Below, piece by piece: positions 1 to 13,554 of a DNA stretch of 24,056 nucleotides. Source of the stretch: a virus. Location: IMG/VR virus record IMGVR_UViG_3300042090_000765, positions 1 through 24,056 of that record; one strand, 5' to 3'. Numbering within the stretch: position 1 is the stretch's first letter; every line of letters begins with the position of its first letter. Below the pieces are notes generated by a model that saw nothing but the letters and a program-made list of their open reading frames with translations, made no database searches and had not been told where the DNA came from. Position numbers and translations under genes: made by a program.

Positions 1-213
1 GAACGGCGGCAGGAAAGGCTAGAGGAAGAACGCCGCGAAGAAGCCGCCCGCGAACGCCGCCGCCACGAGGCTGAAATGGAACGCCAGCGCGAGGAAGAAG
101 AATACAATCGGCAGCAACAAGAGGCATACGAACAACAGCAACAAGAGCCACAGGAACAGCCAGTGGTCGAGTCGCCTAACGATGAGCTGAGCCATAGACA
201 CTCTGGAAAATGA
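1..213 (+). CDS. C-terminal part of a charged coiled-coil protein (5' end outside window)
   Basis: Frame 1 is open from the first base to a TGA at 211-213, giving 70 residues. The fragment is almost entirely Glu, Arg and Gln (repeated EERRE and QQQQE patterns), so it is a helical, probably coiled-coil tail. No domain can be named. The left core of the first attC-like element (174-180) lies inside the coding sequence, so the last 13 residues are encoded by the element. The stop overlaps the next gene's ATG as ATGA at 210. Function unknown; it may resemble the coiled-coil protein at 2284-3414, but only in composition. Confidence 0.7.
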   Translation, partial: ERRQERLEEERREEAARERRRHEAEMERQREEEEYNRQQQEAYEQQQQEPQEQPVVESPNDELSHRHSGK

Positions 214-302
214 CTCCCAACCCGCGAACCGGCTTAGTGACACCAGCGACGCCCGCCGAAGCTGATGGCGGAGTGTCTATTGGCTCCGGCGATTTGTTAA
301 GG
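174..302. repeat. attC-like recombination site 1
   Basis: The left core GCCTAAC (174-180) and right core GTTAAGG (296-302) flank inner arms ATAGACACTC (194-203) and GAGTGTCTAT (271-280), which pair 10 of 10. The adjoining GAGCC (189-193) pairs with GGCTC (282-286), leaving T281 unpaired in the right arm. The loop holds the TGA of the upstream gene and the ATG at 210. Confidence 0.85.
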
Positions 303-1346
303 CGCAAAACCTGGGACTCCCGAATTGGAGTCCTGCCCTGGCCGAAAGACCAAGTGCGCGGCAAACGGGTGAGGCTAACGCACCTCGACGGCAAGCTTCC
401 AAACCTCGCGCTGATGAAACTTTCTGCGTGGTTCAAAACCAACGGCGCGGAAGTCTTCTTCTCGAAGTCAGTGAGTCGTGAACTTTTCGAGGGCGAATAT
501 GACCTCGTGCTTGGCTCGTCAATTTTCGCGTGGTCGGTGAACGCCCGCGAAATCTTCAAGCAAAACTTCCCGTCCGCCGTCATCGGCGGCACGGGCGCGG
601 AAGACGCAACCAACCTCGAACAATATATCGGCGACGACATGACGGTGTGTGACTACTCCATCTATCCGAGCTTCACGCCGTCGCTCGGCTTCACGCAACG
701 CGGCTGCCGCCTGAAATGCTCCTTCTGTGTCGTGCCGACGAAAGAAGGCCGCGTAAAACCGATGAACACCATCGCCGACATTTGGCGCGGCGAGCCTCAC
801 CCGAAACAAATAATCCTGCTCGACAATGACTTCTTTGGGCAACCGGACTGGCGGGCGCGAACGGACGAACTGCAAGCCGGAAACTTTGAAGTCTCTCTCA
901 ACCAAGGAATCAATGTTCGACTGATCCACGCCGAAGGCGCGGCGGTGCTGGCAAAGCTCAAATACCGCGATGACCAGTTCAAGGCGAAGCGCATCTACAC
1001 AGCGTGGGACAACCGCAAAGACGAAGAAATTTTCCTGCGCGGAATAAACCTTCTGATCAGTGCTGGAATCAAACCTAGCTCGATAATGGTGTATTTTTTG
1101 TGCGGTTACTGGCCTGGTGAAACATGGGAAGACATTTTTTTTCGCTACAACAAAATGCGCGAGCTGGGGGTTCTTGCTTACCCGATGGTCTATGACAACA
1201 AAAACAAAATGCTCAAAAAATTTCAGTGCTGGATAATACGAAACTATGACCGTTTTTTGCCGTGGGAAGAATTTGACACGCGCAAACTTGGAAGCGGCCC
1301 GCGATTTGATGACGCACAACAACCACTGGCGCTCACTGCGCCTTAA
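210..1346 (+). CDS. Radical SAM protein, possibly with an N-terminal cobalamin-binding-like domain
   Basis: The protein has 378 residues. The radical SAM cluster motif CxxxCxxC is present as RGCRLKCSFC, with Cys166, Cys170 and Cys173 as the expected [4Fe-4S]/SAM ligands. Residues about 50-135 (RVRLTHLDGK to AVIGGTGAED) have the layout seen before the radical SAM barrel in B12-binding radical SAM enzymes, but I cannot confirm a cobalamin site. The C-terminal half contains TAWDNRKDEE and a LCGYWPGETWED stretch typical of the barrel's later strands. Substrate unknown; nucleic-acid or peptide modification are the usual roles of phage examples. The ATG at 210 lies in the loop of attC-like site 1, so about 29 N-terminal residues come from the element. 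The stop TAA (1344-1346) lies in the next left core. Confidence 0.8.
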   Translation: MTPNPRTGLVTPATPAEADGGVSIGSGDLLRRKTWDSRIGVLPWPKDQVRGKRVRLTHLDGKLPNLALMKLSAWFKTNGAEVFFSKSVSRELFEGEYDLVLGSSIFAWSVNAREIFKQNFPSAVIGGTGAEDATNLEQYIGDDMTVCDYSIYPSFTPSLGFTQRGCRLKCSFCVVPTKEGRVKPMNTIADIWRGEPHPKQIILLDNDFFGQPDWRARTDELQAGNFEVSLNQGINVRLIHAEGAAVLAKLKYRDDQFKAKRIYTAWDNRKDEEIFLRGINLLISAGIKPSSIMVYFLCGYWPGETWEDIFFRYNKMRELGVLAYPMVYDNKNKMLKKFQCWIIRNYDRFLPWEEFDTRKLGSGPRFDDAQQPLALTAP

Positions 1347-1347
1347 C
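1338..1347. repeat. Orphan attC-like left core
   Basis: GCGCCTTAAC is the exact reverse complement of the right core and flank at 296-305, marking the end of the radical SAM unit. It contains that gene's stop codon. A left inner arm seems to follow (about 1352-1370), but no complementary right arm or GTT core occurs before the next left core at 1413, so this element has lost its right half. Confidence 0.65.
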
Positions 1348-1373
1348 GTAAAGCTCACCCACAGCCCGGCAAA

Positions 1374-1418
1374 ATGACACTCGACGCCCTACAACCTGAA
1401 CCGCTGGGAGCGGGCTAA
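1374..1418 (+). pseudogene. Collapsed cassette with a 14-codon remnant reading frame
   Basis: An ATG at 1374 lies 33 nt after the orphan left core, close to the spacing used by intact units. It opens a frame of 14 codons that stops at TAA 1416-1418 inside the left core of the next element. The pattern fits a unit that kept its start and end but lost its body and right arm by deletion. No function is claimed. Confidence 0.35.
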
Positions 1419-1517
1419 CGATCCGCATGAGCCACGGCGCGAATAACTCAAACCATGAACACTGCTAAAACCAAACTGACGCGGCCAATCTCCATTCGCT
1501 GCATGGAGTGGTTAGAG
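1413..1517. repeat. attC-like recombination site 2 (degenerate)
   Basis: The left core GGCTAAC (1413-1419) and right core GTTAGAG (1511-1517) match 5 of 7 when paired. TCCGCATGAGC (1422-1432) is largely complementary to GCTGCATGGA (1498-1507). The innermost arms are weak, unlike in the other sites. The start of the 22-codon frame at 1455 is at the usual offset of 42 nt after the left core. Confidence 0.55.
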
Positions 1518-1523
1518 GTCTAG
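1455..1523 (+). CDS. 22-residue leader-type reading frame starting in an attC-like loop
   Basis: The ATG at 1455 occupies the same place as the start codons of neighbouring units, but the frame closes at TAG 1521-1523, just after the right core. The real gene of this unit then starts at 1558 with its own ribosome binding site. The frame may be a short translated leader or a relic of the loop start when the gene has an independent start. Confidence 0.3.
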   Translation: MNTAKTKLTRPISIRCMEWLEV

Positions 1524-1544
1524 CAACGAAAACCAAAACGCAAC

Positions 1545-1550
1545 GAGAGG
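1545..1550 (+). promoter_or_regulatory. Shine-Dalgarno for the 1558 gene
   Basis: GAGAGG lies 7 nt before the ATG at 1558. It is the clearest Shine-Dalgarno in the array and fixes this start, in contrast to the loop-located starts of most neighbours. Confidence 0.65.
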
Positions 1551-1557
1551 AAAACAT

Positions 1558-2100
1558 ATGGGACTCTTTGGAAAAATCATCGGAACGGCGCTCGACGTGG
1601 TAACGACTCCAATCGCAATAGCGAAGGACGTGATACCTGGTGCGGGTGGATACATTGACGGCAACCGGAGCAAGACCGGCGAAAAATTCGAGGAAGTCGC
1701 TGACGACCAAGCGCAAGCCTTCCATGCGCTCGTGATGGAACGCCGCAAGGATCAATCGCGCTGCCCGCGCTGCGGACATCCTCGCGGCGAAAAATATCGG
1801 ACGTGTGACCGCTGCCGCGAAAAAATCCGCAAGGCTAAACTTCGCGCCAAAGGAATCGCCGTGGTGAAGGGTGGCGAATACTCAAACGCTGACCTCGCGG
1901 CGATGGTGCTGCAAATGCGGCGCGAAATGGACAGGATGCAAGCCCGCTTCAAGCTCTGGCAAAAGGCCGCGCACTACCGGCGCAATCTGCACTATCGAAC
2001 GAACGCGATGCGAAAGAAATACCTGAAACCCGTCAGCCACGCGGAAGCGATGGACTATCTGGCGGAAACCTGCCACGCCTACGAGGGCGAAGTGGCCTAA
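1558..2100 (+). CDS. Zinc-ribbon protein with a hydrophobic N-terminal segment
   Basis: The protein has 180 residues. Residues 1-30 (MGLFGKIIGTALDVVTTPIA and onward) form a glycine-rich amphipathic or weakly hydrophobic segment of a kind I associate with small phage proteins. A four-cysteine knuckle pair follows at Cys69/Cys72 (CPRC) and Cys83/Cys86 (CDRC), consistent with one zinc ribbon. The remainder is a basic helical region rich in Arg, Met and Tyr. Its function is unknown; nucleic-acid or membrane association is possible from composition only. The start is supported by the GAGAGG site, and the TAA stop (2098-2100) lies within the left core of the next element. This is one of two units in the array whose gene does not start in the element loop. 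Confidence 0.75.
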   Translation: MGLFGKIIGTALDVVTTPIAIAKDVIPGAGGYIDGNRSKTGEKFEEVADDQAQAFHALVMERRKDQSRCPRCGHPRGEKYRTCDRCREKIRKAKLRAKGIAVVKGGEYSNADLAAMVLQMRREMDRMQARFKLWQKAAHYRRNLHYRTNAMRKKYLKPVSHAEAMDYLAETCHAYEGEVA

Positions 2101-2191
2101 CGCCACAAGCTGAACCACGCCCAGCTTGAGGCGTGAACCGCGTAGCGGACTGACAGCGATAATGGGCGTTGGTTCCAGCGCGTTGTTAGAC
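2095..2191. repeat. attC-like recombination site 3
   Basis: GCCTAAC (2095-2101) and GTTAGAC (2185-2191) both fit the attC core consensus exactly. The left arm GCTGAACCACGCCC is paired by the right arm GGGCGTTGGTTCCAGC (2164-2179), leaving two unpaired bases in the right arm. A small internal hairpin, CCGCGTAGCGG, lies in the loop. The upstream gene's stop lies in the left core. An ATG at 2162 opens only a 30-codon frame. Confidence 0.85.
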
Positions 2192-2283
2192 AGCCGGTTT
2201 GCGACTCACGAAAATAAATTCCTAAATAAAGCTTGTGTCAAAACCGGGTTATGATATAAACAAACAGCAACCAAAATAAAAAC
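2192..2283 (+). promoter_or_regulatory. AT-rich leader with possible promoter inside a cassette
   Basis: This stretch is markedly AT-richer than the rest of the array. It contains TTGTGT (2233-2238), a 16-nt gap and TATAAA (2255-2260), with TATGAT overlapping at 2250-2255. Match to a sigma-70 type promoter is modest. An A-rich leader runs up to the ATG at 2284. It may be an internal promoter giving this unit independent expression. Confidence 0.3.
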
Positions 2284-3414
2284 ATGAACACCGAAACAAA
2301 AACCGTAGAACTCGAAATCGTATCGCCGGATGACAAGCTGGTAAAATACGCCAGCCAGACCGGACTGGAAACCACAGCAAGGTCAAGCCTCGTGTCGGCT
2401 TTCCAGCCAATCTTTGCGAAGGCACGCGCTGCGCTGGCGGACGCTCAAGGCGTGGCCGAATCTGTCAAAGATGCAACGTGCGTCAAGGAAATCCGAAAGT
2501 CTCGCGCCTGCCGTCTCGCGCTCCGCGCCGTCCGGCTGGAAAGTGATGAAACACGGAAAAAACAAAAGCAGTCCGTGCTGCTTTACGGAAAAGCCGTGGA
2601 CGGATTCCATAACATCCTAATGGCTGACCTGTCGCCGGTTGAAATCGCGCTGCAAGACGCTGAGGACATCGCAGAGCGCGCCGAAGCTGCGCGACTCGCT
2701 GAATTGAAGGCCACGCGTGAAAAGGAACTGCAACCTTTTTTGGAGACACCAATCATGGGCGACCTGTCCGCCATTTCGGAAAAGGACTATGCCAAAATGC
2801 TGGCTGATGCAAAGCTGCTCAAACAAGCAAAAATTGACGCCGCCGCGAAAGCGGAGGCGGAAGCCAAAGCCAAGGAGGAAGCCGAGCGAATCGAGCGCGA
2901 GCGGATTGCCTCCGAAAATGCGAGGCTGAATGCCGAGGCGATTGCCCGCGAAGCGGCAGCGAAAGCGGAGCGGGATGCCGCTGAAAAGAAACTGGCTGAC
3001 GAGCGCGCCGCCGCCGATGCCGCCGCGAAAGCAGCCGCAGAGAAGGCGCGGAAAGAGCGTGAGGCGATTGAAGCCAAAGCCAAAGCAGAGCGCGCCGCCG
3101 CCGATGCCGAAGCACGCAAGGAACAACAACGGCTGCAAGCCATCGCCGAAGAAGAACGGAAGAAATTCGCTGCTGCCGAGGCGGCGGCAAAAGTCCTACG
3201 CGAAGCCGAGGCCAAGAGGCTGGCTGAAGCCGCTGCCGCCGCAAAGAAAGCCGCTGCCGCGCCGGACAATGTCAAAGCGCAGTCCATCGCCAACGCCTTG
3301 CGCGAACTGGCGAAAGTAAAGCTCAACAGCGCGGCCTTTGCCGCGATGCCAGCCAAGATCGAAGTCCTGGCCGCGTGGATCGAAGCTCAAATCAAGTCCG
3401 GCGAACTACTGTGA
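2284..3414 (+). CDS. Ala/Glu/Lys-rich coiled-coil protein, phage DUF1351/TolA-like composition
   Basis: The protein has 376 residues. Residues 1-130 are a mixed alpha-helical domain (EIRKSRACRLALRAVRLE, then VLLYGKAVDGFHNIL) that resembles phage proteins annotated as DUF1351 or recombination-associated coiled-coil proteins. Residues about 125-330 are one long Ala/Glu/Lys/Arg helix, certainly coiled coil. A short globular C terminus (residues 335-376) follows. Phage relatives usually lie beside single-strand annealing or exonuclease genes, but no such partner is in this window, so the role is open. TolA-like database hits would be composition artefacts. The stop overlaps the next gene's GTG as GTGA at 3411, so the two genes form a two-gene unit. 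Antisense frames here are shadows of the GC-rich repeats. Confidence 0.8.
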   Translation: MNTETKTVELEIVSPDDKLVKYASQTGLETTARSSLVSAFQPIFAKARAALADAQGVAESVKDATCVKEIRKSRACRLALRAVRLESDETRKKQKQSVLLYGKAVDGFHNILMADLSPVEIALQDAEDIAERAEAARLAELKATREKELQPFLETPIMGDLSAISEKDYAKMLADAKLLKQAKIDAAAKAEAEAKAKEEAERIERERIASENARLNAEAIAREAAAKAERDAAEKKLADERAAADAAAKAAAEKARKEREAIEAKAKAERAAADAEARKEQQRLQAIAEEERKKFAAAEAAAKVLREAEAKRLAEAAAAAKKAAAAPDNVKAQSIANALRELAKVKLNSAAFAAMPAKIEVLAAWIEAQIKSGELL

Positions 3415-3605
3415 AAACAGTTCTTCCTAAAAAAGTGCTTGAGTATTTCAAGACTCAAGGCGCACGCGGCCCAAAGGAGCGCAAAAGCACGCGGATAATC
3501 ACGCCAGCACAACAGGCCGCGCTTCAAAAGGCTCGCCGCAAAGCTAAACGCTCCGCCCGGCTGCCCAACGTGCCGATGAGCGAACCGCCGACCAAGACGC
3601 CATGA
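3411..3605 (+). CDS. Small basic hypothetical protein
   Basis: I choose the GTG at 3411 because it overlaps the previous stop (GTGA), the same coupling used at 5315; a longer frame from 3375 would run inside the previous gene. The product has 64 residues and is Lys/Arg-rich in the middle (QKARRKAKRSAR), which could bind nucleic acid or be disordered. Its last residues, NVPMSEPPTKTP, are encoded by attC-like site 4 and recur at the end of the 4708 protein for that reason. The TGA overlaps the next ATG as ATGA at 3602. Confidence 0.6.
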   Translation: MKTVLPKKVLEYFKTQGARGPKERKSTRIITPAQQAALQKARRKAKRSARLPNVPMSEPPTKTP

Positions 3606-3654
3606 AAAACACTGAAGACGCCATCGGCGGTTCGCTCCATCGGGCTGGTTCGGC
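3563..3654. repeat. attC-like recombination site 4 (copy 1 of a duplicated site)
   Basis: GCCCAAC (3563-3569) and GTTCGGC (3648-3654) flank 13-base perfectly paired inner arms, AGCGAACCGCCGA (3579-3591) with TCGGCGGTTCGCT (3624-3636). Outside these, GCCGATG pairs with CATCGGG-type bases leaving unpaired bases in the right arm. Bases 3567-3653 are identical to 5011-5097. The ATG of the next gene (3602) lies in the loop. Confidence 0.88.
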
Positions 3655-4003
3655 TGTCCGGCCTGTGATCCGGCAGTCCAACAACGAATGCGGTGTAGAT
3701 GCTCCGCATGTCTTCAATACGACCGTGCTGCCGCCGCATCCTGACAAACACTGCCGGTGCGGAAAGCAGACATGGAAGAAAGCCGAGGCTGCGGCCTTCA
3801 ATGCCGCCATGCAGAAATTCGGAAACGAAGCCCTGCAAACCATCGAACGATTTTCTCCGGCGACGGAACTGCTAACTAGCCCATCGGAAACTGTGGGCGG
3901 GGACGCATCGGAAGGTGCGTCCGCTCCGTCGCCGGGAAACCAAACTGAAACTGACGGCGTGAACCGGCAGCCGAACGCTCCGCATGAGCCACCGGCACAC
4001 TGA
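3602..4003 (+). CDS. Small hypothetical protein with CxC motif
   Basis: The protein has 133 residues. The first 16 (MKNTEDAIGGSLHRAG) are encoded by the attC-like element and are identical to those of the 5046 protein. Cys30 and the pair Cys51/Cys53 (HCRCGK) may bind metal. Residues 57-84 look like a normal helical domain. From about residue 85 the sequence becomes Ser/Thr/Pro/Glu-rich and poorly structured, and it reads through the left core at 3970. A 7-bp hairpin (GGACGCA, 3901-3907, with TGCGTCC, 3916-3922) lies in this low-complexity part. Function unknown. Start choice: the ATG in the loop, overlapping the previous stop as ATGA. Confidence 0.6.
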   Translation: MKNTEDAIGGSLHRAGSAVRPVIRQSNNECGVDAPHVFNTTVLPPHPDKHCRCGKQTWKKAEAAAFNAAMQKFGNEALQTIERFSPATELLTSPSETVGGDASEGASAPSPGNQTETDGVNRQPNAPHEPPAH

Positions 4004-4079
4004 AAATATGAAAAGCACAAAAACATTACCGATTGCCGAGTCCGCGCCGCTGCCGGTTGGCTCCGTGCGGTGGTTAGGT
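3970..4079. repeat. attC-like recombination site 5
   Basis: GCCGAAC (3970-3976) and GTTAGGT (4073-4079) flank arms in which AGCCA (3987-3991) pairs with TGGCT (4058-4062) and CCGGCA (3992-3997) pairs with TGCCGG (4051-4056), leaving T4057 unpaired. GGCAGCCGAAC at 3966-3976 matches the complement of 3648-3658 in 10 of 11 positions. The next gene's ATG (4008) is in the loop. Confidence 0.85.
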
Positions 4080-4355
4080 GCGGACTTGGAAATCAAAAAA
4101 ATCTTCGACCGGCTGCAAGAATCTTACGATGTATCGTGGACGGAACTGGCGATAATGACCGCCAAAGAATACGCCGAAAGTCTGCGCGTCCCGCAATATG
4201 ACCGCGAACTAAGGCTGGCCGAATCTGAAATCGAAAAGTGGAAAGGTGTGGCGCGACAACTCCACATGGCGCTTGGGTGCCGTAAGGCGGAAAAACTCCG
4301 CGTCTGTGCCGAGCACGCCTACTTAAACGCACAAGCACCTAACGACCGGAGCTAA
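4008..4355 (+). CDS. Small hypothetical protein
   Basis: The protein has 115 residues from the ATG at 4008. An in-frame ATG at 3984 exists, but it lies inside the left arm and would overlap the previous gene; 4008 sits at the standard 38-nt offset and follows an A-rich stretch. The product has two predicted helical regions, IKKIFDRLQE and a long helix around residues 60-85 (YDRELRLAESEIEKWKG). Two cysteines (CRKAEKLRVC) are present near the C terminus. No family is recognised. The first 22 residues come from the attC-like element. The stop TAA (4353-4355) is 10 nt past the next left core. Confidence 0.65.
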   Translation: MKSTKTLPIAESAPLPVGSVRWLGADLEIKKIFDRLQESYDVSWTELAIMTAKEYAESLRVPQYDRELRLAESEIEKWKGVARQLHMALGCRKAEKLRVCAEHAYLNAQAPNDRS

Positions 4356-4445
4356 GGCACGCGGAAACTGAAACTTTATGAAACCAAGACCCGAAGCGAA
4401 CAACCCGCAGCGCGAATCCGCGTTGCCTTCAGCGACTGGTTATGC
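4337..4445. repeat. attC-like recombination site 6
   Basis: ACCTAAC (4337-4343) fits RYYYAAC exactly and GTTATGC (4439-4445) is the right core. AAGGC (4354-4358) pairs with GCCTT (4425-4429) and ACGCGG (4359-4364) pairs with CCGCGT (4418-4423), leaving T4424 unpaired. AGCACCTAAC matches the complement of 4073-4082 in 9 of 10. The ATG of the next gene (4378) is in the loop. Confidence 0.85.
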
Positions 4446-4668
4446 CGCCTGCGCGCGATGTGGCAAACCGTTCCAGCCAAAGCCGACGAAGCTCAAAACC
4501 ATACCAATGACCCGGTGCTGCGAAACATGCCAGTGCAAGAATCTGTTCGACGGCCTCGACATGCCAACGCCGCCGAGCTTGCTCGACCGGCACACGAAAC
4601 ACCCGACGCTCACCGATGCCGAGTGGCGTCGAGAACTCGCCAAACCCGATGACACGGAAGCGGCATAA
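4378..4668 (+). CDS. Small cysteine-rich (zinc-ribbon-like) protein
   Basis: The protein has 96 residues. Cys25 and Cys28 (CARCGKPF) begin four residues after the right core, and a second cluster holds Cys47, Cys48, Cys51 and Cys53 (RCCETCQCK). This resembles a compact zinc ribbon or knuckle. Because the first CxxC is so close to the right core, the only reasonable start is the ATG at 4378 inside the element loop. The stop TAA (4666-4668) lies within the next left core. Function unknown; small zinc-ribbon proteins of phages often act as adaptors, but nothing here shows a partner. Confidence 0.65.
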   Translation: MKPRPEANNPQRESALPSATGYAACARCGKPFQPKPTKLKTIPMTRCCETCQCKNLFDGLDMPTPPSLLDRHTKHPTLTDAEWRRELAKPDDTEAA

Positions 4669-4787
4669 CGCAGAGTCCAGCAACGACGCTGGGAGAAAGG
4701 CGTAAAAATGGAAAACGACATCAAAATGCACGGATACATTGACGAAGCCAAGGGCACAGCGTCGTTGGCTGCGACGACGGGTTATGC
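4663..4787. repeat. attC-like recombination site 7
   Basis: GCATAAC (4663-4669) and GTTATGC (4781-4787) are perfect complements. The inner arms AACGACGCTG and CAGCGTCGTT (4757-4766) pair 10 of 10, with an unpaired G in the right arm between them and the next paired block. GCGGCATAAC (4660-4669) is the exact complement of 4439-4448. The loop holds the ATG at 4708. Confidence 0.88.
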
Positions 4788-5049
4788 TCTGGAAGATACC
4801 ACCATAGAAAAAGGCGGAGTAGTCCGGTGCTGTCTTGGAAGCGTGGCGACCGAGTATCTCGGCCAGCGCGTCATGCTCGGCGCTAAAAGCAAATGTCCCC
4901 ACTGTGGAACAACCTTCACGCTCGTCGAAATAAAACCAGGGATGCGGACGTGCTACCAGCAACCCGTGAAGTGGCCGGTCTGGAAACCCGACTGGCAACT
5001 CAAAGAGCATAACGTGCCGATGAGCGAACCGCCGACCAAGACGCCATGA
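4708..5049 (+). CDS. Small cysteine-containing hypothetical protein
   Basis: The protein has 113 residues. It contains Cys41/Cys42 (VRCCLG), a CPHCG knuckle (Cys63/Cys66) and Cys82, a pattern compatible with one zinc site. A Trp/Pro-rich stretch follows (KWPVWKPDW). The last 12 residues are encoded by attC-like site 8 and equal those of the 3411 protein. The ATG lies in the loop of site 7 after GAAAGG, which gives a possible weak ribosome site. The TGA overlaps the next ATG as ATGA (5046). No family recognised. Confidence 0.65.
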   Translation: MENDIKMHGYIDEAKGTASLAATTGYALEDTTIEKGGVVRCCLGSVATEYLGQRVMLGAKSKCPHCGTTFTLVEIKPGMRTCYQQPVKWPVWKPDWQLKEHNVPMSEPPTKTP

Positions 5050-5098
5050 AAAACACTGAAGACGCCATCGGCGGTTCGCTCCATCGGGCTGGTTCGGA
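5007..5098. repeat. attC-like recombination site 8 (copy 2 of the duplicated site)
   Basis: GCATAAC (5007-5013) and GTTCGGA (5092-5098) flank the same 13-base arms as site 4 (5023-5035 with 5068-5080). Bases 5011-5097 equal 3567-3653 exactly, and after one mismatch nine further bases also match. To the left of AAC the copies differ at once (CAT against CCC). AGAGCATAAC (5004-5013) is the exact complement of 4781-4790. Confidence 0.88.
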
Positions 5099-5318
5099 TG
5101 TCCGGCCCGAGACTGGACAACTGCGCTGCCCGAAATGCCGGGCGCTCACGCTCAACGTGAACGTGTCTGACATCATCGCAGCGAATGGACGGGTGACGTG
5201 CTCGCGGTGCGGACACGAGCGAACCGTGCTGGTAAATGTCCCGGCTGCGAATGGCGGCGGCGGAGTGATAATGACCCCGGCGACCGCGCTGCGAATAATC
5301 AAAGGAAAAAAGAAGTGA
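5046..5318 (+). CDS. Small two-CxxC zinc-ribbon protein
   Basis: The protein has 90 residues. Cys28/Cys31 (CPKC) and Cys52/Cys55 (CSRCG) form a clear zinc ribbon of about 30 residues, followed by a Gly-rich linker and a basic C-terminal end (RIIKGKKK). The first 16 residues are encoded by the element and match the 3602 protein exactly, although the bodies of the two proteins differ. The stop overlaps a GTG start as GTGA at 5315, coupling it to the HNH gene in the same unit. Likely nucleic-acid or protein binding, by fold class only. Confidence 0.72.
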   Translation: MKNTEDAIGGSLHRAGSDVRPETGQLRCPKCRALTLNVNVSDIIAANGRVTCSRCGHERTVLVNVPAANGGGGVIMTPATALRIIKGKKK

Positions 5319-5605
5319 GCAAATTCGACGACCAATACAAACTGCAAGGCGGTCGGTGCTGGCTCTGCCAAACCTTCACGCTGCCGCAAAATCTGAATCG
5401 GGCGCATCTGACGCCGAAATCTCACGGCGGCACAATCGGCGACGACTGGAGCGGGGCGGTGCTGATGCACCCGGCCTGCAATTCCGCAATGAAATGTTTG
5501 CACGCTGGAAGCCTGCGCTTCCAGAAATGGATCAAGCGCGTGGTCAAGCACGGCTCGATGCACTCTTTTATCCGACGGGAAACCTTCATCCACAACGCGA
5601 CGTGA
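5315..5605 (+). CDS. HNH-type endonuclease, small
   Basis: The protein has 96 residues from the GTG at 5315, which overlaps the previous stop. Cys15 and Cys18 (CWLC), then NRAHLTPKSHGG with His31 as the probable general base, and HPACN (His52, Cys55, Asn56) match the zinc-bearing HNH layout with a Gly-Gly turn. The usual Asp-His is replaced by Ala-His (AHLTP), so activity should be tested. A basic C-terminal helix (QKWIKRVVKHG) may bind DNA. Phage HNH proteins act in homing or packaging; here the gene is carried in an attC-like unit with a zinc-ribbon partner. The stop lies 7 nt before the next left core. Confidence 0.75.
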   Translation: MSKFDDQYKLQGGRCWLCQTFTLPQNLNRAHLTPKSHGGTIGDDWSGAVLMHPACNSAMKCLHAGSLRFQKWIKRVVKHGSMHSFIRRETFIHNAT

Positions 5606-5612
5606 CCCGGCA

Positions 5613-5720
5613 TCCGAACGCCGGAACTCACGCACCGGCGACCAAAAACCTATGAACGAACCAGACGTTACCGAAAAAGAGAAAGCGCCAACGCCGGTTG
5701 CGTGCAGTGACTTGTTAGCC
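5613..5720. repeat. attC-like recombination site 9
   Basis: TCCGAAC (5613-5619) and GTTAGCC (5714-5720) flank arms where CACGCA (5629-5634) pairs with TGCGTG (5699-5704) and CCGGCG (5635-5640) pairs with CGCCGG (5692-5697), leaving T5698 unpaired. CATCCGAAC (5611-5619) is the exact complement of 5092-5100. The next ATG (5652) is in the loop. Confidence 0.85.
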
Positions 5721-5918
5721 TGCCCGCACTGTGGACAAATTCCAAATGTGAGCGCGAGCGAAACCGCCGCTTGGGTGTGCTGCTCAAACCTAAATGACCC
5801 ATGCCCAGGATATGACACAGACTGGACGGGAGTGCCGCCCGCCAGAATCGGCGGAGCTTGTAGTAAGGAAGCCGCAATAGCCGCATGGAATGACTTCGCA
5901 AAGCAGGCTAACAAGTGA
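5652..5918 (+). CDS. Lar-like (restriction alleviation family) small zinc protein
   Basis: The protein has 88 residues. LLACPHCG (Cys24/Cys27), then WVCC (Cys43/Cys44) and the C-terminal EAAIAAWND match the compact layout of the Lar/restriction-alleviation family (PF14354), in which a CPxCG opens the domain and an A-x-x-A-W-N helix closes it. Rac-prophage Lar modulates type I restriction, but many family members are uncharacterised. The CPHCG begins two to three residues after the right core, so the start must lie in the element loop at 5652. The stop (5916-5918) follows directly after the terminal half-site. This is the last unit of the array. Confidence 0.72.
   Translation: MNEPDVTEKEKAPTPVACSDLLACPHCGQIPNVSASETAAWVCCSNLNDPCPGYDTDWTGVPPARIGGACSKEAAIAAWNDFAKQANK
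5903..5912. repeat. Terminal half-site at the right end of the array (attI-like candidate)
   Basis: GCAGGCTAAC is the exact complement of 5714-5723, so it closes the Lar-like unit. No complementary right arm or GTT core is seen in the next 150 bases, unlike all intact elements. If the sites are reversed relative to the genes, this is where an attI-like simple site would be expected. Confidence 0.55.
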
Positions 5919-5925
5919 TTATGCA

Positions 5926-5950
5926 ATACGAAGAATCAACCCATTCGTAT
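5926..5950. repeat. Inverted repeat just after the array
   Basis: ATACGAA (5926-5932) and TTCGTAT (5944-5950) form a 7-bp perfect stem with an 11-nt loop. The ATG of the next gene (5949) lies in the right arm, so the hairpin could affect its translation or be a protein-binding site at the array boundary. Confidence 0.4.
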
Positions 5951-6221
5951 GAGTAAATACCGTTCAGCAACTTACAGAAGGTCCGTGAGAGGTTCCAAGA
6001 TCAGGGCTTGGCTACATCATAAGCAGATGACCCAAACCCCACTGGTTCCCGAGAATAAAAACGTTTTCACGCCCCACGTAAAAGCCGAATGGATTATCCG
6101 TTTGGAACATTCGTCCGGAACAAGGTCGTCATTCAGGATTTATCGGACGCCGTGGGGTCTTTCTGTATCACCCACAATGGCGGGCAGGAAAGTTGCCTGC
6201 ACTCTCAAAAACTTCAAATGA
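5949..6221 (+). CDS. Hypothetical protein
   Basis: This is a 90-residue basic protein with no recognised family. It has an Arg/Lys-rich start (KYRSATYRRSVRGSKIRAW), and its second half (FRIYRTPWGLSVSP) looks like a small beta-rich domain. There is no convincing Shine-Dalgarno, and the ATG lies in a hairpin arm. It is the first gene after the cassette array and begins the non-cassette part of the genome. Coding is supported by an uninterrupted frame filling the gap between confident genes. Confidence 0.5.
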   Translation: MSKYRSATYRRSVRGSKIRAWLHHKQMTQTPLVPENKNVFTPHVKAEWIIRLEHSSGTRSSFRIYRTPWGLSVSPTMAGRKVACTLKNFK

Positions 6222-6234
6222 AACTCGAATCCCC

Positions 6235-6510
6235 ATGAAATCTCCGCTCACATCCGACAGGTTGCAGAAGCCGCTCAGGGCGCTGCAGTCTCATCCCAAC
6301 GGCCTGACGCCGCTTGAACTCAACCAAATATGCCAGTCCACCCGTGCATCAAGCGACCTGAGTGAGTTGCGTGAAAACGGCATACAAATCATCAAGACCT
6401 ATGAAGGCATGTCCCCCAATGGCCGCAAGGTCTTTCGCTTCCGGCTTGCCTATTCGCCTGATGAAGCTCACGCCATATTTGATGCTGAATATGACAAGGT
6501 GAGGGTTTGA
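6235..6510 (+). CDS. Winged-helix/helix-turn-helix DNA-binding protein
   Basis: The protein has 91 residues from the ATG at 6235; an upstream frame from 6193 overlaps the previous gene and is less likely. The region LRALQSHPNGLTPLELNQIC, then SSDLSELRENGIQIIKTYE, then GRKVFRFRLAY has the helix-turn-helix plus wing layout of small phage winged-helix proteins that sort rules by L-x-x-L-R-E-x-G-I. It may be a transcription regulator of the early region or a replication accessory. No inducer domain is present. The gene precedes the DUF1376-like gene by 48 nt. Confidence 0.68.
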   Translation: MKSPLTSDRLQKPLRALQSHPNGLTPLELNQICQSTRASSDLSELRENGIQIIKTYEGMSPNGRKVFRFRLAYSPDEAHAIFDAEYDKVRV

Positions 6511-6558
6511 TGCCCGTAAAACCCCTTGACAACCAAGTGAACTGCGCGGTCTAAAGCC

Positions 6559-7149
6559 ATGAATACAAATTCTTCAACGGGGGATTTGCCGGTTCCTATC
6601 ATGGACTTCGACCCTGTGCCGTTTGATGAAGCCACGGCGATGTTCACTGACGAGGAAAAGTACAGGTACATCCGCGCTTTGAGGTTTTACTGGTACCACA
6701 CGCACGTCGAAGGCATCCCAGACGACGACGCCGGCATGAGAGAATTGTGCCACTGTGATTTGTCAAAGTGGGCGCGGCTCAAGGGCATGATATTCGACAA
6801 TGACAAATTCTTTTACATTGAGAACGGCAAATGGCACCAGAAACGCGCTCGCAAGGCATTTAAATTAAAGCAGGAAATGCTGATTAAAAACCAGTCAAAG
6901 ACAAACGCGGCCAGGGACGCAAAACTCGCTGCTCACACAATATCACAGTCTGTTACAGACATTGTGGATGGCAATCCTACGCCTTCGCAAATCGTGCTGC
7001 TCCAGACCGCTCTGACGCGGGTTGAAAAGCGGGTCGAATACATTCGCGGCCAGTGTCCGTTGCCAAGGGGCGACGCTCGCCTCACGGAGTTGGATGAACT
7101 AAAAACCGAACGCCGCAAAATCATGGCCAAGCTGCACCTGAAAGCGTGA
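6559..7149 (+). CDS. DUF1376-like phage protein (replication-associated)
   Basis: The protein has 196 residues. An early aromatic helix (EEKYRYIRALRFYWYHTH), a short acidic turn (IPDDDAGMRELC) and then a KWARLKGMIF helix with FFYIENGKWHQKRARK follow the plan of DUF1376 (PF07120) proteins, which stand in phage genomes upstream of helicase or replication genes. The C-terminal half is helical with a coiled-coil-like end (LTELDELKTERRKIMAKL). A replication-initiation or transcription-linked role is inferred from family neighbours only. The start follows a short gap after the winged-helix gene. Confidence 0.7.
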   Translation: MNTNSSTGDLPVPIMDFDPVPFDEATAMFTDEEKYRYIRALRFYWYHTHVEGIPDDDAGMRELCHCDLSKWARLKGMIFDNDKFFYIENGKWHQKRARKAFKLKQEMLIKNQSKTNAARDAKLAAHTISQSVTDIVDGNPTPSQIVLLQTALTRVEKRVEYIRGQCPLPRGDARLTELDELKTERRKIMAKLHLKA

Positions 7150-7192
7150 ATATCAACGAACCGAGAAAAACCCAATAGTGGTGCGTTGACCC

Positions 7193-7417
7193 ATGAACCC
7201 GCTCGCCCACGCCAAGAAACGACAAGGCAGGCCAAATACAACCGGCCTGTCACTAAAAAAACTTGGCCGTCACGAATACTTCAGGCGCTATCGCTCGCGG
7301 AAACTTGGCAGGCCAATCGCCATCAAGCCTAGATGGACAGGCCTCTCTCTGAAGCAGCTTGGTTGGGCGGAATATATGCATAGCCGGCGAAATCTTATTG
7401 CGAACGGGGCGGCTTGA
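7193..7417 (+). CDS. Small basic protein with an internal repeat
   Basis: The protein has 74 residues. It contains two copies of one motif, TGLSLKKLGRHEYFRRYRSR and TGLSLKQLGWAEYMHSRRN, about 31 residues apart. Each copy could form a short Leu/Arg/Tyr-bearing helix, as in AT-hook-sized DNA-binding or ribbon-helix motifs, but I recognise no family. It is strongly basic. It is followed by an AT-rich gap and may act on it; that is speculation from position. Confidence 0.6.
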   Translation: MNPLAHAKKRQGRPNTTGLSLKKLGRHEYFRRYRSRKLGRPIAIKPRWTGLSLKQLGWAEYMHSRRNLIANGAA

Positions 7418-7677
7418 TTGAATTAATTAAAAAAACAGAGAGCATTAGGAGACTACTATTATATTTTGTAAGCAAGAAGCGTTAGCGATTTGATGAGGAA
7501 ACGTATGGAAACTGTTTTCAGGTTTTGGCACAGATGAGGACTGCGCGGTATGTGTCAGCCGATTTTTATGACGCAATTACGTCTACGTCTGCGTGGGCTT
7601 ATTCTGTTGACATTTGCTGACGTAAGAATTTGTCAGAAAATGCTTGACGGATTCGATGAATTGATTAATCTTGCGGC
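7418..7677 (+). promoter_or_regulatory. AT-rich regulatory gap before the replication/packaging operon
   Basis: There is no convincing gene in these 260 bases. They contain a TATTAT box (7457-7462), a perfect TTGACA (7607-7612) without a good -10 at normal distance, and an inverted repeat CTGAC (7617-7621)/GTCAG (7632-7636). The base composition is clearly AT-richer than its neighbours. It probably holds a promoter and an operator for the downstream genes. Confidence 0.4.
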
Positions 7678-8172
7678 GTGTACGGAAAGCATTTTGCGAG
7701 CATGTATTGCGGGTCCATGGTTGGGGCGGGATTTGGGGCTTTTTCGGTGATGGGGTATGTCATTGCCAACATGAAGCCGGATAAGACCGTTGGTTTTCAG
7801 GTTGAACTGAACACAAAACTGCTTTCGGCTGTTTTCGGCGAGCCGGAAGAAACAATTCAGAAGGCTATTGAGTTTTTGTGCGCTCCAGACCCCCAGTCAA
7901 GAACCCCGACCGAAAGCGGGCGGCGGCTTGCCAAGGTTGGACAGTTCGCATATCGGGTTGTAAACGGCGTTCTGTATGACCGATTAAGGAACGAAGAAGA
8001 TCGGCGGGAGCAGAACCGGATTGCACAGCAGCGGCACCGCCAGAAAAAGCCAACACTCTCTAAATCACAGGTTCGTGCTCAATCTGAATTACGCGAACGC
8101 CGATTTGTTGAGGCCGACAAGAACGGAGAAACAGCCAGGGCCGATGCCATTGCCGCCGAAGGTTTGCCATGA
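7678..8172 (+). CDS. Phage replication/helix-turn-helix protein of the common VELNPxLL family type
   Basis: The protein has 164 residues from a GTG at 7678. Its opening YGKHFASMYCGSMVGAG, then VIANMKPDKTVGFQVELN, the EFLCAPDPQSRTP loop, GQFAYRVVNGVLYDRL and the basic end IAQQRHRQKK match a widespread phage protein type that I know as a predicted replication or DNA-binding protein; no catalytic motif is seen. The family's conserved start agrees with GTG 7678, and an in-frame stop at 7666-7668 excludes a longer N terminus. A 66-residue overlapping frame at 7550 is rejected. The stop overlaps the terminase small subunit start as ATGA (8169). Confidence 0.72.
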   Translation: MYGKHFASMYCGSMVGAGFGAFSVMGYVIANMKPDKTVGFQVELNTKLLSAVFGEPEETIQKAIEFLCAPDPQSRTPTESGRRLAKVGQFAYRVVNGVLYDRLRNEEDRREQNRIAQQRHRQKKPTLSKSQVRAQSELRERRFVEADKNGETARADAIAAEGLP

Positions 8173-8591: not shown

Positions 8592-8592
8592 A

Positions 8593-10512
8593 ATGTTAAC
8601 CCGCAAACAAGACGCCGAACTTGCCTCAACCCTGATTTGGAGATTTTGCGCACCAAAGCCGAGCGCTCCGGCCTCATTCTGGGTAGAGGAAAACGTCCGG
8701 TTCAATGAGCCAAAGATACGCGGAGCATTCAGTTTTTCGGGTCGGGAATATCTGCGCGAGATTGTGGATTCATGGGGGCCGCTCCCGCCCGGACTAAAGG
8801 GTGGAGAACATTTTATCGGCTGCATGGGGACGGGTATTGGCAAAACGACTGGGAGCATTGCCGGCATCCTGTATCGCCTGATGAACGAGCCCATGCGGGC
8901 GCTGATTGTCAAGCCAACCTCCCACGGGCCGGCCGGAGCCTCATCATTCACCAAGACGCGTCTGGTGACGGCAATCAAGTCCTCCCGCTGTTTTGAAGAC
9001 CTGATTCCGACCGGGGCGGAGCGCCACAATATTTCATCATCGCAGATTTCCATGAACGGCTGCGTCATTGATATCACGGGCAGCAATTCCGTAGGGCAAC
9101 TTGGTGAAAACCGCTGCGACGTTGTTTTGCAGGATGAAATCGACAAATACCCGCCGCAACGCGAGGAAAGCAAGGAAGCCAACGCGATCATACTGGCCGA
9201 TGAACGGACAAAATCCGTAAGCGATGCGCGGCGGTTCAAATTCAGCACACCAACCCTCGGTAATACCGGAATCTGGGCTGAATTTCTAAAAGGGGACCAA
9301 CGGCGGAGATTTGTGCCATGCCCTCATTGCGGCAAGGGTATCGTGTTCGCTTGGTCGAGGCAATTCACGGTATTTGAATTCAAGGGGTATGAGGCTTTTG
9401 TGCGCTGGGACGATTCAGCGCGGACATCCGAATCAAAATCAAAATACGGCTGGGACTTGGAAAAGGTTGCGGAAACGGCGCACGCGCTCTGTCCTCATTG
9501 TCAAGGAAGAATTCTGGACCGGCACAAGCCGGCGATGGACGCGAAGGGCCATTGGGAGCCTACGGCAAAAGGAGCGCCCGGATATTATTCCTGGCATTTG
9601 CCGTCGATGTACGCCCTTACAGCCGATTGCAGCTTTGGCGCGATGGCAAAAAAATTCCTGATTGCCAAGCATTCGCCGGACGGCGTGAAGGGCTTCATTA
9701 ATTCCGACCTGGCTGAACCCGACGTGACCCAGCAGATTGCCGTGGACCGCGCCGGCATCGTTGGCCGCGAACTGGAAGTGACCGGGGAATGGGTCAAGCT
9801 ATTGTCGGCAGACTATCACCAGAACGCACCCTACTTTTGGGCGCTCGTTCGGGCCTGGAATGGCAGCAATAAATCTCACGGCGTTGAATATCAATCTTTC
9901 AACCAATGGCACGAACTGGACGAGTTGCAGGCCAAGCACAAAATCATCCCGCAGGCGGTCATTGTGGATTCTGGATTCGACCAGGCCGAGGTCATGCGCA
10001 ATTGCGCCAATTTTAAAATCCAGACGCGCTGCCTCTTGATTGACCCCGTTCAGGACGCGTTGCCGGAATGCAACGGTTGGTCTCCGGCAAAGGCATTCGG
10101 AGGAAAGCGAATGTACCGGGACACCGTGACGAATCTTTATATGCCATTCCGGATAAAAGCCAATTGCGACCCCTATGCCGGCACCGAACTGGCGCATCAA
10201 TGCCGGATAGAATTACTGGAATTCCTGAGCGACCTGTTCGAAGACAATCTCGAAAACATCCGGCTTGGGAAAACGTTCATAGAATGGAGCATTTCAAAGG
10301 AGATGGACTCGGACGAATATCACCGACACATGGCGGGCAAAAAGAGGGTTTACAAAAAGGACGGAGTGCAATATCAATGGGCAACAATACGACCGGGTTA
10401 TGCCGACCATCTTCGCTCCTGTGAACTGCTCAATTTTGTGCTAGCCTACCGCCTCCAACTGATTTCTTATGAGGCCATCCAGACGCGAGAAAAGGAAAAG
10501 GACAAAAAATGA
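8593..10512 (+). CDS. Terminase large subunit, GpA family
   Basis: The protein has 639 residues, normal for the lambda GpA family. The ATPase domain has a Walker A GTGIGKTT (residues 79-86) and Walker B VVLQDE (177-182). A zinc knuckle pair typical of GpA follows: CPHC at 243-246 and CPHC at 300-303. The C-terminal nuclease region contains VIVDSGFDQAEV with an acidic residue expected for metal binding. It cuts concatemeric DNA and drives packaging into the procapsid. Its closest context is the preceding small subunit and the portal at 11845, although two or three small genes intervene. Confidence 0.93.
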   Translation: MLTRKQDAELASTLIWRFCAPKPSAPASFWVEENVRFNEPKIRGAFSFSGREYLREIVDSWGPLPPGLKGGEHFIGCMGTGIGKTTGSIAGILYRLMNEPMRALIVKPTSHGPAGASSFTKTRLVTAIKSSRCFEDLIPTGAERHNISSSQISMNGCVIDITGSNSVGQLGENRCDVVLQDEIDKYPPQREESKEANAIILADERTKSVSDARRFKFSTPTLGNTGIWAEFLKGDQRRRFVPCPHCGKGIVFAWSRQFTVFEFKGYEAFVRWDDSARTSESKSKYGWDLEKVAETAHALCPHCQGRILDRHKPAMDAKGHWEPTAKGAPGYYSWHLPSMYALTADCSFGAMAKKFLIAKHSPDGVKGFINSDLAEPDVTQQIAVDRAGIVGRELEVTGEWVKLLSADYHQNAPYFWALVRAWNGSNKSHGVEYQSFNQWHELDELQAKHKIIPQAVIVDSGFDQAEVMRNCANFKIQTRCLLIDPVQDALPECNGWSPAKAFGGKRMYRDTVTNLYMPFRIKANCDPYAGTELAHQCRIELLEFLSDLFEDNLENIRLGKTFIEWSISKEMDSDEYHRHMAGKKRVYKKDGVQYQWATIRPGYADHLRSCELLNFVLAYRLQLISYEAIQTREKEKDKK

Positions 10513-11392: not shown

Positions 11393-11851
11393 ATGCGTGT
11401 GGACATCTCCACGGAAACACTTCAGGCATTCCTTGACGATGCGTGGGACGCCGCGCCGGAAGAGGGCGACACCCTGCGCGACACCCTGCGCGGCTTTGAA
11501 AAACAATTGACGGCGCAATTTGAAACCGCCGGTTCTCTGGGGAGCGTCTCCAAAAATTCCGCCTCCCAAAGTTATCGCGGGCCGGGGCTTGGCTCCTACA
11601 CCATCCCGCAGATTCAGACCGCTTGGCGCACGCTCATCAACCTTTTCGACTCCACCCTGGCATGGATTAATTCTTACCTGGCCAATCCGCCAGCCACTCC
11701 GCCGACCTGTTGGACGCCGCCGGAAGACAATTCGGATGCAACCGTTTACCAGTTTATGAAGAATCAACTGGTGGTCGTCACTGAATACCAGCCCGACCTC
11801 TCGAATTTGAGGCTCAGGCCGACGCTCGGATACGCCCCGCAGACATGGTGA
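11393..11851 (+). CDS. Hypothetical protein preceding the portal
   Basis: The protein has 152 residues. Its start is acidic and helical (QAFLDDAWDAAPEEGDTLRD), the middle is Ser/Gly-rich (SQSYRGPGLGSYTIPQIQTA), and a Pro-rich stretch (NPPATPPTCWTPPED) lies near residues 97-111. No family is recognised. Placed directly before the portal, where lambda carries gpW, it may be a head-completion or connector protein, but its length and sequence are not those of gpW. The stop at 11849-11851 overlaps the portal start. Confidence 0.65.
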   Translation: MRVDISTETLQAFLDDAWDAAPEEGDTLRDTLRGFEKQLTAQFETAGSLGSVSKNSASQSYRGPGLGSYTIPQIQTAWRTLINLFDSTLAWINSYLANPPATPPTCWTPPEDNSDATVYQFMKNQLVVVTEYQPDLSNLRLRPTLGYAPQTW

Positions 11852-13554
11852 TGAACAAGCCGCTCACATTTTTAAGATGGAATTCAATTTTACTGTTGAA
11901 CGAGGCCCGCGCACAGCTTCCGACCTTCGGAAAGATGGCATTAAATTCGGCGCGATGGTTTTCGTCCAGAGTTTTACCGCGCTCCAATACGGCGCGGAAA
12001 ATGTACCATGGCGTTCGGAATTGGTACGAGGCTGGCTGGCCGCTATGGACAGGCGGCGCGGAATCATACCTGCCCTCATTGGTTCAGGACGCCCGCTGGG
12101 ACCAGAACTTTGTCACCCGGCGGGAAATGCTTCGCCGGATGCGCTACTGGTCGCAGAATTCGCCCATCATCGAATCCATCCTTTCCGTCGGCGAGCGATA
12201 TACTGTCGGCGCGGCGGGCCTGCATGTTTCCTTTTATCCCGATGATGATTTGTCGGAGGATGCGGATAATTCCTGGTATGAGCAAGCCGACCGTGTGGTT
12301 GCCGAATGGTTTCAGGATTGCGGCTGGAACGGCGAGACCATGGCCGAATTGCTGAAAATCGCCTATCGCGACCAGAAAGTTGACGGCGAAATCTTTGCCA
12401 TTAAAACGCGCAAAGCCGGCGCACTCAACCTTGTCAGCCGGACCATCCGCGTTCAAAAACCCTGCCTTCAGTTGATTGAGGCGCACCGGGTTGAATCGCC
12501 GTGGAACCAATTCGAGCAGGAGCAAAAAACACTCATTGACGGTGTGCAATATGAGGCGGTGAATCAGGACGGCAGGCAGATGTTGCGCAAGACCGGGTTC
12601 TGGATGCGTTCCGGGGCAAGCTCCTTTGAACAGAACGATTCATGGAAAATGGTTCCAATCGAACAATGCTGGCAGCTTCGGAATGTCCACCGCGTTGACC
12701 AGCCTCGAAGCGTTTCTGATTTTTACGCCGGGGAAGTGACCATCAACAAGCTCGAAGACCTTCTGGAAATCGAGATGAAGGCGGCGGCGGCGCAAAATGT
12801 CCGCGCCGTTGGCGTTGAAACCGCCAGCGGCCAATTCAGCAAGGCGACTGACCCGAAGATTGAGCTATTCAACCGGGCTCGAGGTCTGCCAACGCCGCCT
12901 CCGCAGGGGGATGAGGGGAAACGGTTTGAGGTTTTCCGCAAGGAAACAGGGGCTTACGTTTACGGACTGAAACTCGGCGAAAAAATCCATTTTGATTCCG
13001 GCAACCGGCCAAGCGAAGCAACGCTCAATCTCTGGGAATATCTGGTCGGGGCCATTTGCGCCGCCGCCCACGCACCGCGCTGCCTCGTGTTCCAAAAAAT
13101 CAGCGGCCAATCCGCCCGCAGCCAGGGCACGGAAGTCCGCGCCGAACTGGATGCCGCCGACGAATTTTACAAGGGGGATTTCCAGAAATGGAAAAACTTT
13201 TTGCGCGAGGCGGTCGTCTGGTTCATGGAATGGGCCATCAACAATGACCCACGGGTTGCCGACCCCCCCGGCGACTGGAAATTCTGCATCCATATCCAGC
13301 AGCCGGAAGCCTGCAACGTGGATATTGGCTACACCACGCAGGCGGACTGCATGAGGCTCGCGGCGGGGCTTTCGGATTACGACATGATTCTTGGCCGTCA
13401 GGGACTTTCCGCCATCAGCGTTTTCAAAAAACTGAAGCGGCAGCAGGCGTTCATGGAGAAGAACAATATCAAGGTCACGTTGCCGGCGCTATTGCCGGGA
13501 CAGATTGAACTTGAAGCGCCCAAGGAACCCGAAAAGGAACCGGCCAACGCATGA
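11845..13554 (+). CDS. Portal protein, lambda (gpB) family
   Basis: The protein has 569 residues, about the size of lambda gpB (family PF05136). The sequence SPIIESILSVGERYTVGAAG, the DGVQYEAVNQDG region, the WQLRNVHRVDQPRSVSD segment, and the helical AHAPRCLVFQKISGQSARS near residue 410-430 are characteristic of lambda-type portals. It forms the dodecameric DNA entry ring at one vertex of the capsid. Start is ATG 11845 or 11851; both overlap the upstream stop. Its stop overlaps the protease start as ATGA (13551). Confidence 0.9.
   Translation: MVMNKPLTFLRWNSILLLNEARAQLPTFGKMALNSARWFSSRVLPRSNTARKMYHGVRNWYEAGWPLWTGGAESYLPSLVQDARWDQNFVTRREMLRRMRYWSQNSPIIESILSVGERYTVGAAGLHVSFYPDDDLSEDADNSWYEQADRVVAEWFQDCGWNGETMAELLKIAYRDQKVDGEIFAIKTRKAGALNLVSRTIRVQKPCLQLIEAHRVESPWNQFEQEQKTLIDGVQYEAVNQDGRQMLRKTGFWMRSGASSFEQNDSWKMVPIEQCWQLRNVHRVDQPRSVSDFYAGEVTINKLEDLLEIEMKAAAAQNVRAVGVETASGQFSKATDPKIELFNRARGLPTPPPQGDEGKRFEVFRKETGAYVYGLKLGEKIHFDSGNRPSEATLNLWEYLVGAICAAAHAPRCLVFQKISGQSARSQGTEVRAELDAADEFYKGDFQKWKNFLREAVVWFMEWAINNDPRVADPPGDWKFCIHIQQPEACNVDIGYTTQADCMRLAAGLSDYDMILGRQGLSAISVFKKLKRQQAFMEKNNIKVTLPALLPGQIELEAPKEPEKEPANA

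Follow-up and report, generated by a model that had tools for sequence, protein, structure and literature searches.

The window analysed here, a 24,056-base fragment of a virus record (IMGVR_UViG_3300042090_000765), opens inside an array, at which its left end is cut. Small genes with intervening hairpins fill bases 1 to ~5920, and structural and early phage genes follow on the plus strand from ~6.5 kb. Nine of the hairpins, 92 to 130 nucleotides (nt) long and all located between positions 174 and 5720, are attC sites. We consider it very probable that the region is an integron cassette array, that is, an attC cluster without an adjoining integrase but with an attI-like end, situated in the early region of a tailed Verrucomicrobiota phage, with cassettes that are exchanged by an integron integrase (IntI). 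The initial annotation, made from the sequence of the window, had described nine elements with AAC...GTT cores and paired inner arms, and these are indeed present. Searching the whole 24 kb with the covariance model R1 (see below) placed all nine on the minus strand; a candidate attI lies on that strand as well:

174..303, minus strand: attC1 (47.9 bits, E = 9e-11; AAC core at 178-180, predicted cut between 179 and 180)
1413..1517, minus strand: attC2, the weakest of the nine (36.4 bits, E = 9.5e-8)
2095..2191, minus strand: attC3, which belongs to one subfamily with Verrucomicrobiota chromosomal attC (75.0 bits, E = 7.6e-18)
3563..3654, minus strand: attC4 (54.9 bits; a 97% copy of attC8, repeat D1)
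3970..4079, minus strand: attC5 (58.5 bits)
4337..4445, minus strand: attC6 (75.6 bits, E = 5e-18)
4663..4787, minus strand: attC7 (44.3 bits)
5007..5098, minus strand: attC8 (43.7 bits)
5613..5720, minus strand: attC9 (75.1 bits)
5906..5922, minus strand: candidate attI at the array end (plus strand GGCTAACAAGTGATTAT; AAC at 5910-5912, predicted cut between 5911 and 5912)

All nine attC sites end in AAC and GTT cores that follow the RYYYAAC / GTTRRRY pattern, with a few deviating bases in the flanking core positions. Extra-helical bases were seen in one arm only, always the plus-strand 3' arm, in 8/8 sites examined (a set that did not include attC2); attC1, for example, carries two extra bases there. 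Matches of attC3 to many host attC sites (blastn) have their edges near 2090-2192, and attC4 is 92% identical to an attC of phage G031, the similarity being restricted to the site itself. Directly after the radical SAM gene, at 1341-1372, lies a 5' attC half (core, spacer, and one arm) without a 3' half, which resembles a truncated site. With nine attC sites (two being the minimum) and no intI gene within this contig, itself a fragment, the window qualifies as a cluster of attC sites lacking integron-integrases (CALIN).

A first scan, which looked for AAC..GTT pairs whose inner arms are complementary, returned six sites scoring at least 34 in positions 1-6000, while dinucleotide shuffles yielded 0.13 per 6 kb at a score of at least 32. 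The remaining three sites fall outside the rules of that scan and were recovered by R1. Since plain AAC..GTT scans at loose thresholds produced many chance matches in coding DNA, they were abandoned, and all counts rest on the covariance model. R1 was built from 38 aligned sites from other phage and bacterial loci, the window being excluded, and its structure comprises both cores and the arms, with two extra-helical bases. With filters off, it found the nine sites at 36 to 76 bits (E = 5e-18 to 9.5e-8), the next independent place reaching 8.6 bits; the covariance search that the initial annotation had called for therefore gave strong matches, with E values of 5e-18 to 1e-7 under our own model. 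In the training alignment A1, the structure is accompanied by 152 double changes in total and by no one-sided changes in the arm helix, and most of the pairing is lost when it is slid by 1 to 3 columns. As a positive control, R1 was run on 40 kb containing three class 1 integrons and gave only six hits, each an attC on the same strand as the resistance genes. The window elements are attC sites.

The genes between these sites lie on the plus strand, as indicated by a radical SAM family match and by coding scores:

1..213, plus strand: 3' portion of a cassette gene truncated by the contig end (open reading frame [ORF] open to the left)
210..1346, plus strand: radical SAM cassette gene, start inside attC1 (PHROG 9298, E = 6.6e-51; 81% identical cassette gene in phage G006)
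1558..2100, plus strand: zinc-ribbon cassette gene, stop codon TAA within the attC3 core (86% over 127 amino acids [aa] to a phage G017 gene)
2284..3414, plus strand: Ala-rich, coiled-coil-like cassette gene (83% over 208 aa to phage G029)
3375..3605, plus strand: small cassette gene overlapping the gene at 2284..3414 (82% over 49 aa to an array gene of phage G006)
3602..4003, plus strand: cassette gene, start inside attC4 (45% over 76 aa to a G031 array gene)
3984..4355, plus strand: cassette gene, start inside attC5 (coding score favours plus)
4378..4668, plus strand: cassette gene, start inside attC6, stop in the attC7 core (an ORF; coding score does not separate the strands)
4708..5049, plus strand: zinc-ribbon-like cassette gene, start inside attC7
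5046..5318, plus strand: zinc-ribbon-like cassette gene, start inside attC8
5315..5605, plus strand: HNH endonuclease-like, second gene of cassette 8 (HNH_5, E = 0.011, sub-threshold)
5652..5918, plus strand: cassette gene resembling the Lar restriction-alleviation protein, start inside attC9 (PF14354, E = 2e-4, below the Pfam cut-off)

The orientation of cassette genes with their attC sites, a standard feature of integrons, is therefore absent: over eight intervals of the window, coding scores gave a same:opposite ratio of 0:7, with one interval unclear. The ratio was 1:62 in phage arrays (window included) and 52:1 in host arrays, swapped coding models agreed, and counts of the longest ORFs pointed in the same direction (12:64 in phages and 91:5 in hosts). 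Two trivial accounts were rejected. An error in the orientation rule is contradicted by class 1 integrons and by Tetrasphaera phage TJE1, which show the rule to be correct; a general inversion in Verrucomicrobiota, in turn, is contradicted by the larger host set, with its opposite polarity. Because host cassettes run with their attC and the attC sites of TJE1 and of the virus Rctr41k, from a methane-oxidising enrichment (DAMO), also point with the genes, the inversion belongs to the Verrucomicrobiota-type phage pool in particular and characterises neither phages nor the host clade in general. Gene polarity, which the initial annotation had missed, is the surprising part of this locus and appears to be new.

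As a consequence of the inverted polarity, each attC lies 5' of its gene and often holds the start codon: the listed start of the following gene falls inside the attC in 7/9 window sites, and some stop codons are made by the next core. This arrangement, together with the fact that the hairpin is carried on the transcript, is what one would expect of RNA leader structures controlling translation. As the sole explanation of the hairpins, such a role is nevertheless very improbable, given that the AAC/GTT cores do not vary across the alignment, that the arm helix shows no G-U exchange, that the window had no meaningful match in Rfam, and that the same sites occur beside bacterial IntI genes with the opposite gene orientation. 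The hairpins may have a secondary regulatory role besides recombination.

A motif of these sites, TTGGCTCNNGCGNNTTGTTAGG, occurs in 93 stretches of a collection of bacterial and archaeal genomes, almost all from Verrucomicrobiota. The IntI family was matched above its cut-off in 25 of the 38 motif-bearing Verrucomicrobiota genomes and in no control genome; below the cut-off, all 38 and all controls match it to some extent. Where IntI and attC occur together in Verrucomicrobiota, the attC sites point away from intI, which is the classical arrangement. The attC type of the window is that of Verrucomicrobiota integrons. Several IntI ORFs in Verrucomicrobiota genomes L201 to L211 measure 430 to 670 aa, compared with the usual 320 to 340 aa, which suggests an extra domain or extension or a miscalled start. 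The same motif was found in 30 stretches of 26 viral contigs, about twenty of which contain attC arrays according to R1. The G006 contig has arrays at both ends (L172:90-5099 and L173:7155-10680), in opposite orientations and with inverted genes in both.

Comparison of the array-bearing contigs revealed cassettes that begin and end at the cores. The arrays of phages G020 and G021 differ but are flanked on either side by homologous sequence; one cassette is common to both at about 99%, with the identity beginning at the G|TT of one attC and ending at the G|TT of the next. The comparison of related phage contigs suggested by the initial annotation thus yielded breakpoints at the cores. Similarly, G006 and G025 have one common cassette (98% over 879 nt), which is bounded by R' cores and holds the sole ORF of at least 150 aa common to both, and the adjoining attC differs at several bases. 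These boundaries show recent site-specific exchange at the cores within the same phage pool, between phages other than that of the window. In the window, cassette genes match G006, G017, G029, and G031, none of which share its structural genes, and structural genes match L001 to L012, none of which share its cassette genes. The idea that accessory genes are held as recombinable cassettes therefore stands with respect to the attC array and the core-bounded swaps in other phages; movement in the window phage itself would be an extrapolation from those phages.

These data also bear on whether the array might be passenger DNA, a piece of a host chromosomal integron brought in by transduction or misassembly. 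The same attC type dominates Verrucomicrobiota chromosomes, and pieces of chromosomal integrons have moved into Vibrio phages (PMC9892861). We nevertheless regard such an origin as highly unlikely: host cassettes run 52:1 with their attC and phage cassettes 62:1 against it, and the arrays sit in phage contigs with terminases of several different families. Moreover, in the sampled hosts and the rows inspected, phage cassettes and host arrays have attC sequence in common and no genes, whereas several phage cassette genes match other phages.

At its right end, the array closes with the attI-like site, whose core coincides with position 5912, the end of the region in the initial annotation. The motif [AG][CG]C[TC]AACA N0-2 TGATTAT occurs at four distinct places in the 2.7 Mb examined (once each in the window and G013 and twice in G020), all of them in phage contigs with attC arrays and at, near, or within the gene-downstream end of the array. 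Several phage arrays have a non-hairpin CYAACA core followed by an AT-rich stretch at that end, directly before intI in G017 and G026, and host intI genes have a similar CYAACA core and AT-rich sequence, often upstream. We call the site at 5906-5922 a candidate attI. The two attI-like copies of G020 (L236:6845 and 8520) are nearly identical over about 40 bp, one lying inside the array region and the other beyond it, which suggests two arrays in this phage.

A full-length, very divergent IntI of 325 aa is encoded by phage G017 (IMGVR_UViG_3300025162_000136, L178:8444-9418), adjoining three attC sites. Its best match of solved structure is IntI4 (2a3v; E = 5.8e-48), in an alignment that spans the integron-specific insert, and the contig also encodes a portal and a terminase, as well as a Mu-like transposase, so named from its sequence and not from a family match. 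An IntI remnant comprising N- and C-terminal parts only (L182:12025-12222) closes an eight-site array in G026, a phage contig that also has a terminase. When viral contigs were searched at the protein level for further phage IntI, the only matches were G017 itself and a single distant recombinase. A separate case is virus Rctr41k (L263; KX853513.1), in which an IntI-like gene (4680-5678), annotated only as xerD integrase-like, lies upstream of about six attC sites (6641-10101) in the usual orientation. This is apparently a complete phage integron, and it is missing from the complete integrons that Qi et al. list in their Table 1.

Several of our observations weigh against an exchanging integron array. 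The window has no intI gene (no TIGR02249 match), albeit in a contig that is a fragment; attC2 (1413-1517) is weak, and the attC hairpin is not its lowest-energy DNA fold. The attI candidate was first picked by eye, and a matrix built from host attI sites only did not rank 5906-5922 first. In the IntI tree, the integrase of G017 has a very long branch and no resolved position. The coding strand was undecided in many intervals, 56 in phages and 96 in hosts. Finally, the R1 training sites belong to the same attC superfamily and were chosen by the hairpin scan, so that the test does not depend on the window but does depend on the family, and choosing sites by their pairing depresses the count of G-U pairs. 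The missing integrase gene, the one weak site, and the reduction of IntI to a remnant in G026 would all suit a fossil array, with immobile sites and with mosaicism now arising when repeats, for example the 102-bp one present at 3567 and 5011, recombine homologously. We consider this unlikely, since the near-identical, core-bounded cassettes of other phages reflect recent site-specific exchange in the same pool and since the other eight window sites retain their cores, arms, and extra-helical bases.

If the region is indeed an integron cassette array, its operation might be envisaged as follows. Each cassette comprises an attC and, after it, one or two small plus-strand genes. The plus strand, which corresponds to the integron bottom strand, is predicted to fold into attC hairpins when single stranded, and an integron integrase, which could come from the host, from another phage infecting the same cell (for example G017), or from the part of the window phage that is missing, would cut the plus-strand core after AA and before C (G|TT on the opposite strand). 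Cassettes could then be excised, reshuffled, and inserted, ordinarily at the attI-like end (5911/5912). The inverted genes run in the same direction as the phage operon, and as intI in contigs that have it, and would probably be transcribed from upstream phage promoters rather than from an integron Pc promoter, with each attC presumably serving as the 5' leader and often providing the first codons. We propose that the genes are inverted because, with intI and attI in classical arrangement relative to attC, only inverted genes would be co-transcribed with the phage operon and intI. For the window phage, we infer the acting integrase, the function of attI, expression, and activity. More broadly, we are inclined to believe that Verrucomicrobiota phages share an inverted-cassette system of their own, whose cassettes have the host attC type and read toward attI/intI. 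Unrelated phages would trade these cassettes at a phage attI-like site, in part by means of a divergent integrase of phage origin, and the system would represent an integron adapted to phages and not a chance collection of bacterial pieces.

Three further observations concern the surroundings of individual cassettes. Positions 134-182 share 92% identity with sequence at the edge of a G031 attC. The G017 homologue (86%; L177:7020-7400) of the gene at 1558-2100 lies outside any detected array and is possibly an uncassetted form. Between attC3 and the next gene, a 75-bp stretch (2182-2256) is 89% identical to L172:4926-4998 of G006 and contains the promoter-like TATGATATAA.

Beyond the array, on the same strand, lies the lambda-like structural operon noted in the initial annotation, with a gpA-type terminase and a lambda-family portal:

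6559..7149, plus strand: replication-initiation-like gene, directly outside the array (DUF1376; PHROG primosomal protein)
8593..10512, plus strand: terminase large subunit, gpA type (PF05876, E = 1.2e-32)
11845..13554, plus strand: portal protein, lambda family (PF05136, E = 1.6e-26)
13551..16133, plus strand: ClpP protease fused to a probable major capsid protein (PF00574, E = 1.2e-23; capsid part assigned by position)

The product of 6559..7149 is 70% identical over 128 aa to that of G010, where the homologue likewise lies beyond an array. A nucleotide search of positions 1-7200 against the phage collection gave no match. R1 found no attC site in ten sampled terminase relatives of the window, which therefore could not be used for comparing cassette content around its structural genes.

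Phage mosaicism is usually ascribed to illegitimate or homologous recombination. The swapping of accessory genes of unrelated phages, one at a time and at defined sites, provides a concrete and testable route for remodelling of the early region, and some of the cargo looks useful in phage-host conflict, as in the case of the weak restriction-alleviation match. The reversed polarity sets the phage cassette pool apart from the bacterial one, despite the common attC type, and bears on the origin of cassettes and on the way in which the pairing of gene and attC is set, an open question in integron biology.

The initial annotation knew of no description of such cassette-based remodelling in a lambda-like phage. 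The general idea nevertheless has a precedent, as attC clusters in phage genomes (CALINs and integrons) were published by Qi et al. in 2023 (PMC9892861), with 5/6 of the tested phage attC sites recombining with IntI1. That paper does not mention Verrucomicrobiota, and our searches of the open literature, which covered few subscription papers and no preprints, yielded no description of phage arrays with inverted genes or of Verrucomicrobiota phage integrons. The CALINs of Qi et al., such as that of TJE1, resemble the window in being attC arrays inside phage genomes. The cassettes of TJE1 and PH101 have the typical orientation (PMC9892861), whereas the window and about twenty Verrucomicrobiota-type phage contigs differ from TJE1 in their inverted genes, longer arrays, and attI-like end. 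The sedentary chromosomal integrons of Verrucomicrobiota (for example, Geminisphaera TAV2 and metagenome-assembled genomes [MAGs] of Limisphaerales) have the same attC type by R1, and a CYAACA core and AT-rich sequence near intI, but differ in their usual polarity (52:1), with only attC sequence in common in the sample. Class 1 mobile integrons have the same attC architecture, recovered by R1 on the gene strand; their genes, however, run with attC and away from intI1, and their cargo consists of resistance genes instead of small phage genes. Finally, the atypical integrons of Treponema (PMC3607928) resemble these arrays in that intI and the cassette genes are transcribed in the same direction. 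In Treponema, intI is transcribed toward attI (PMC3607928), whereas in G017 the genes read toward an intI that is itself placed classically relative to attC.

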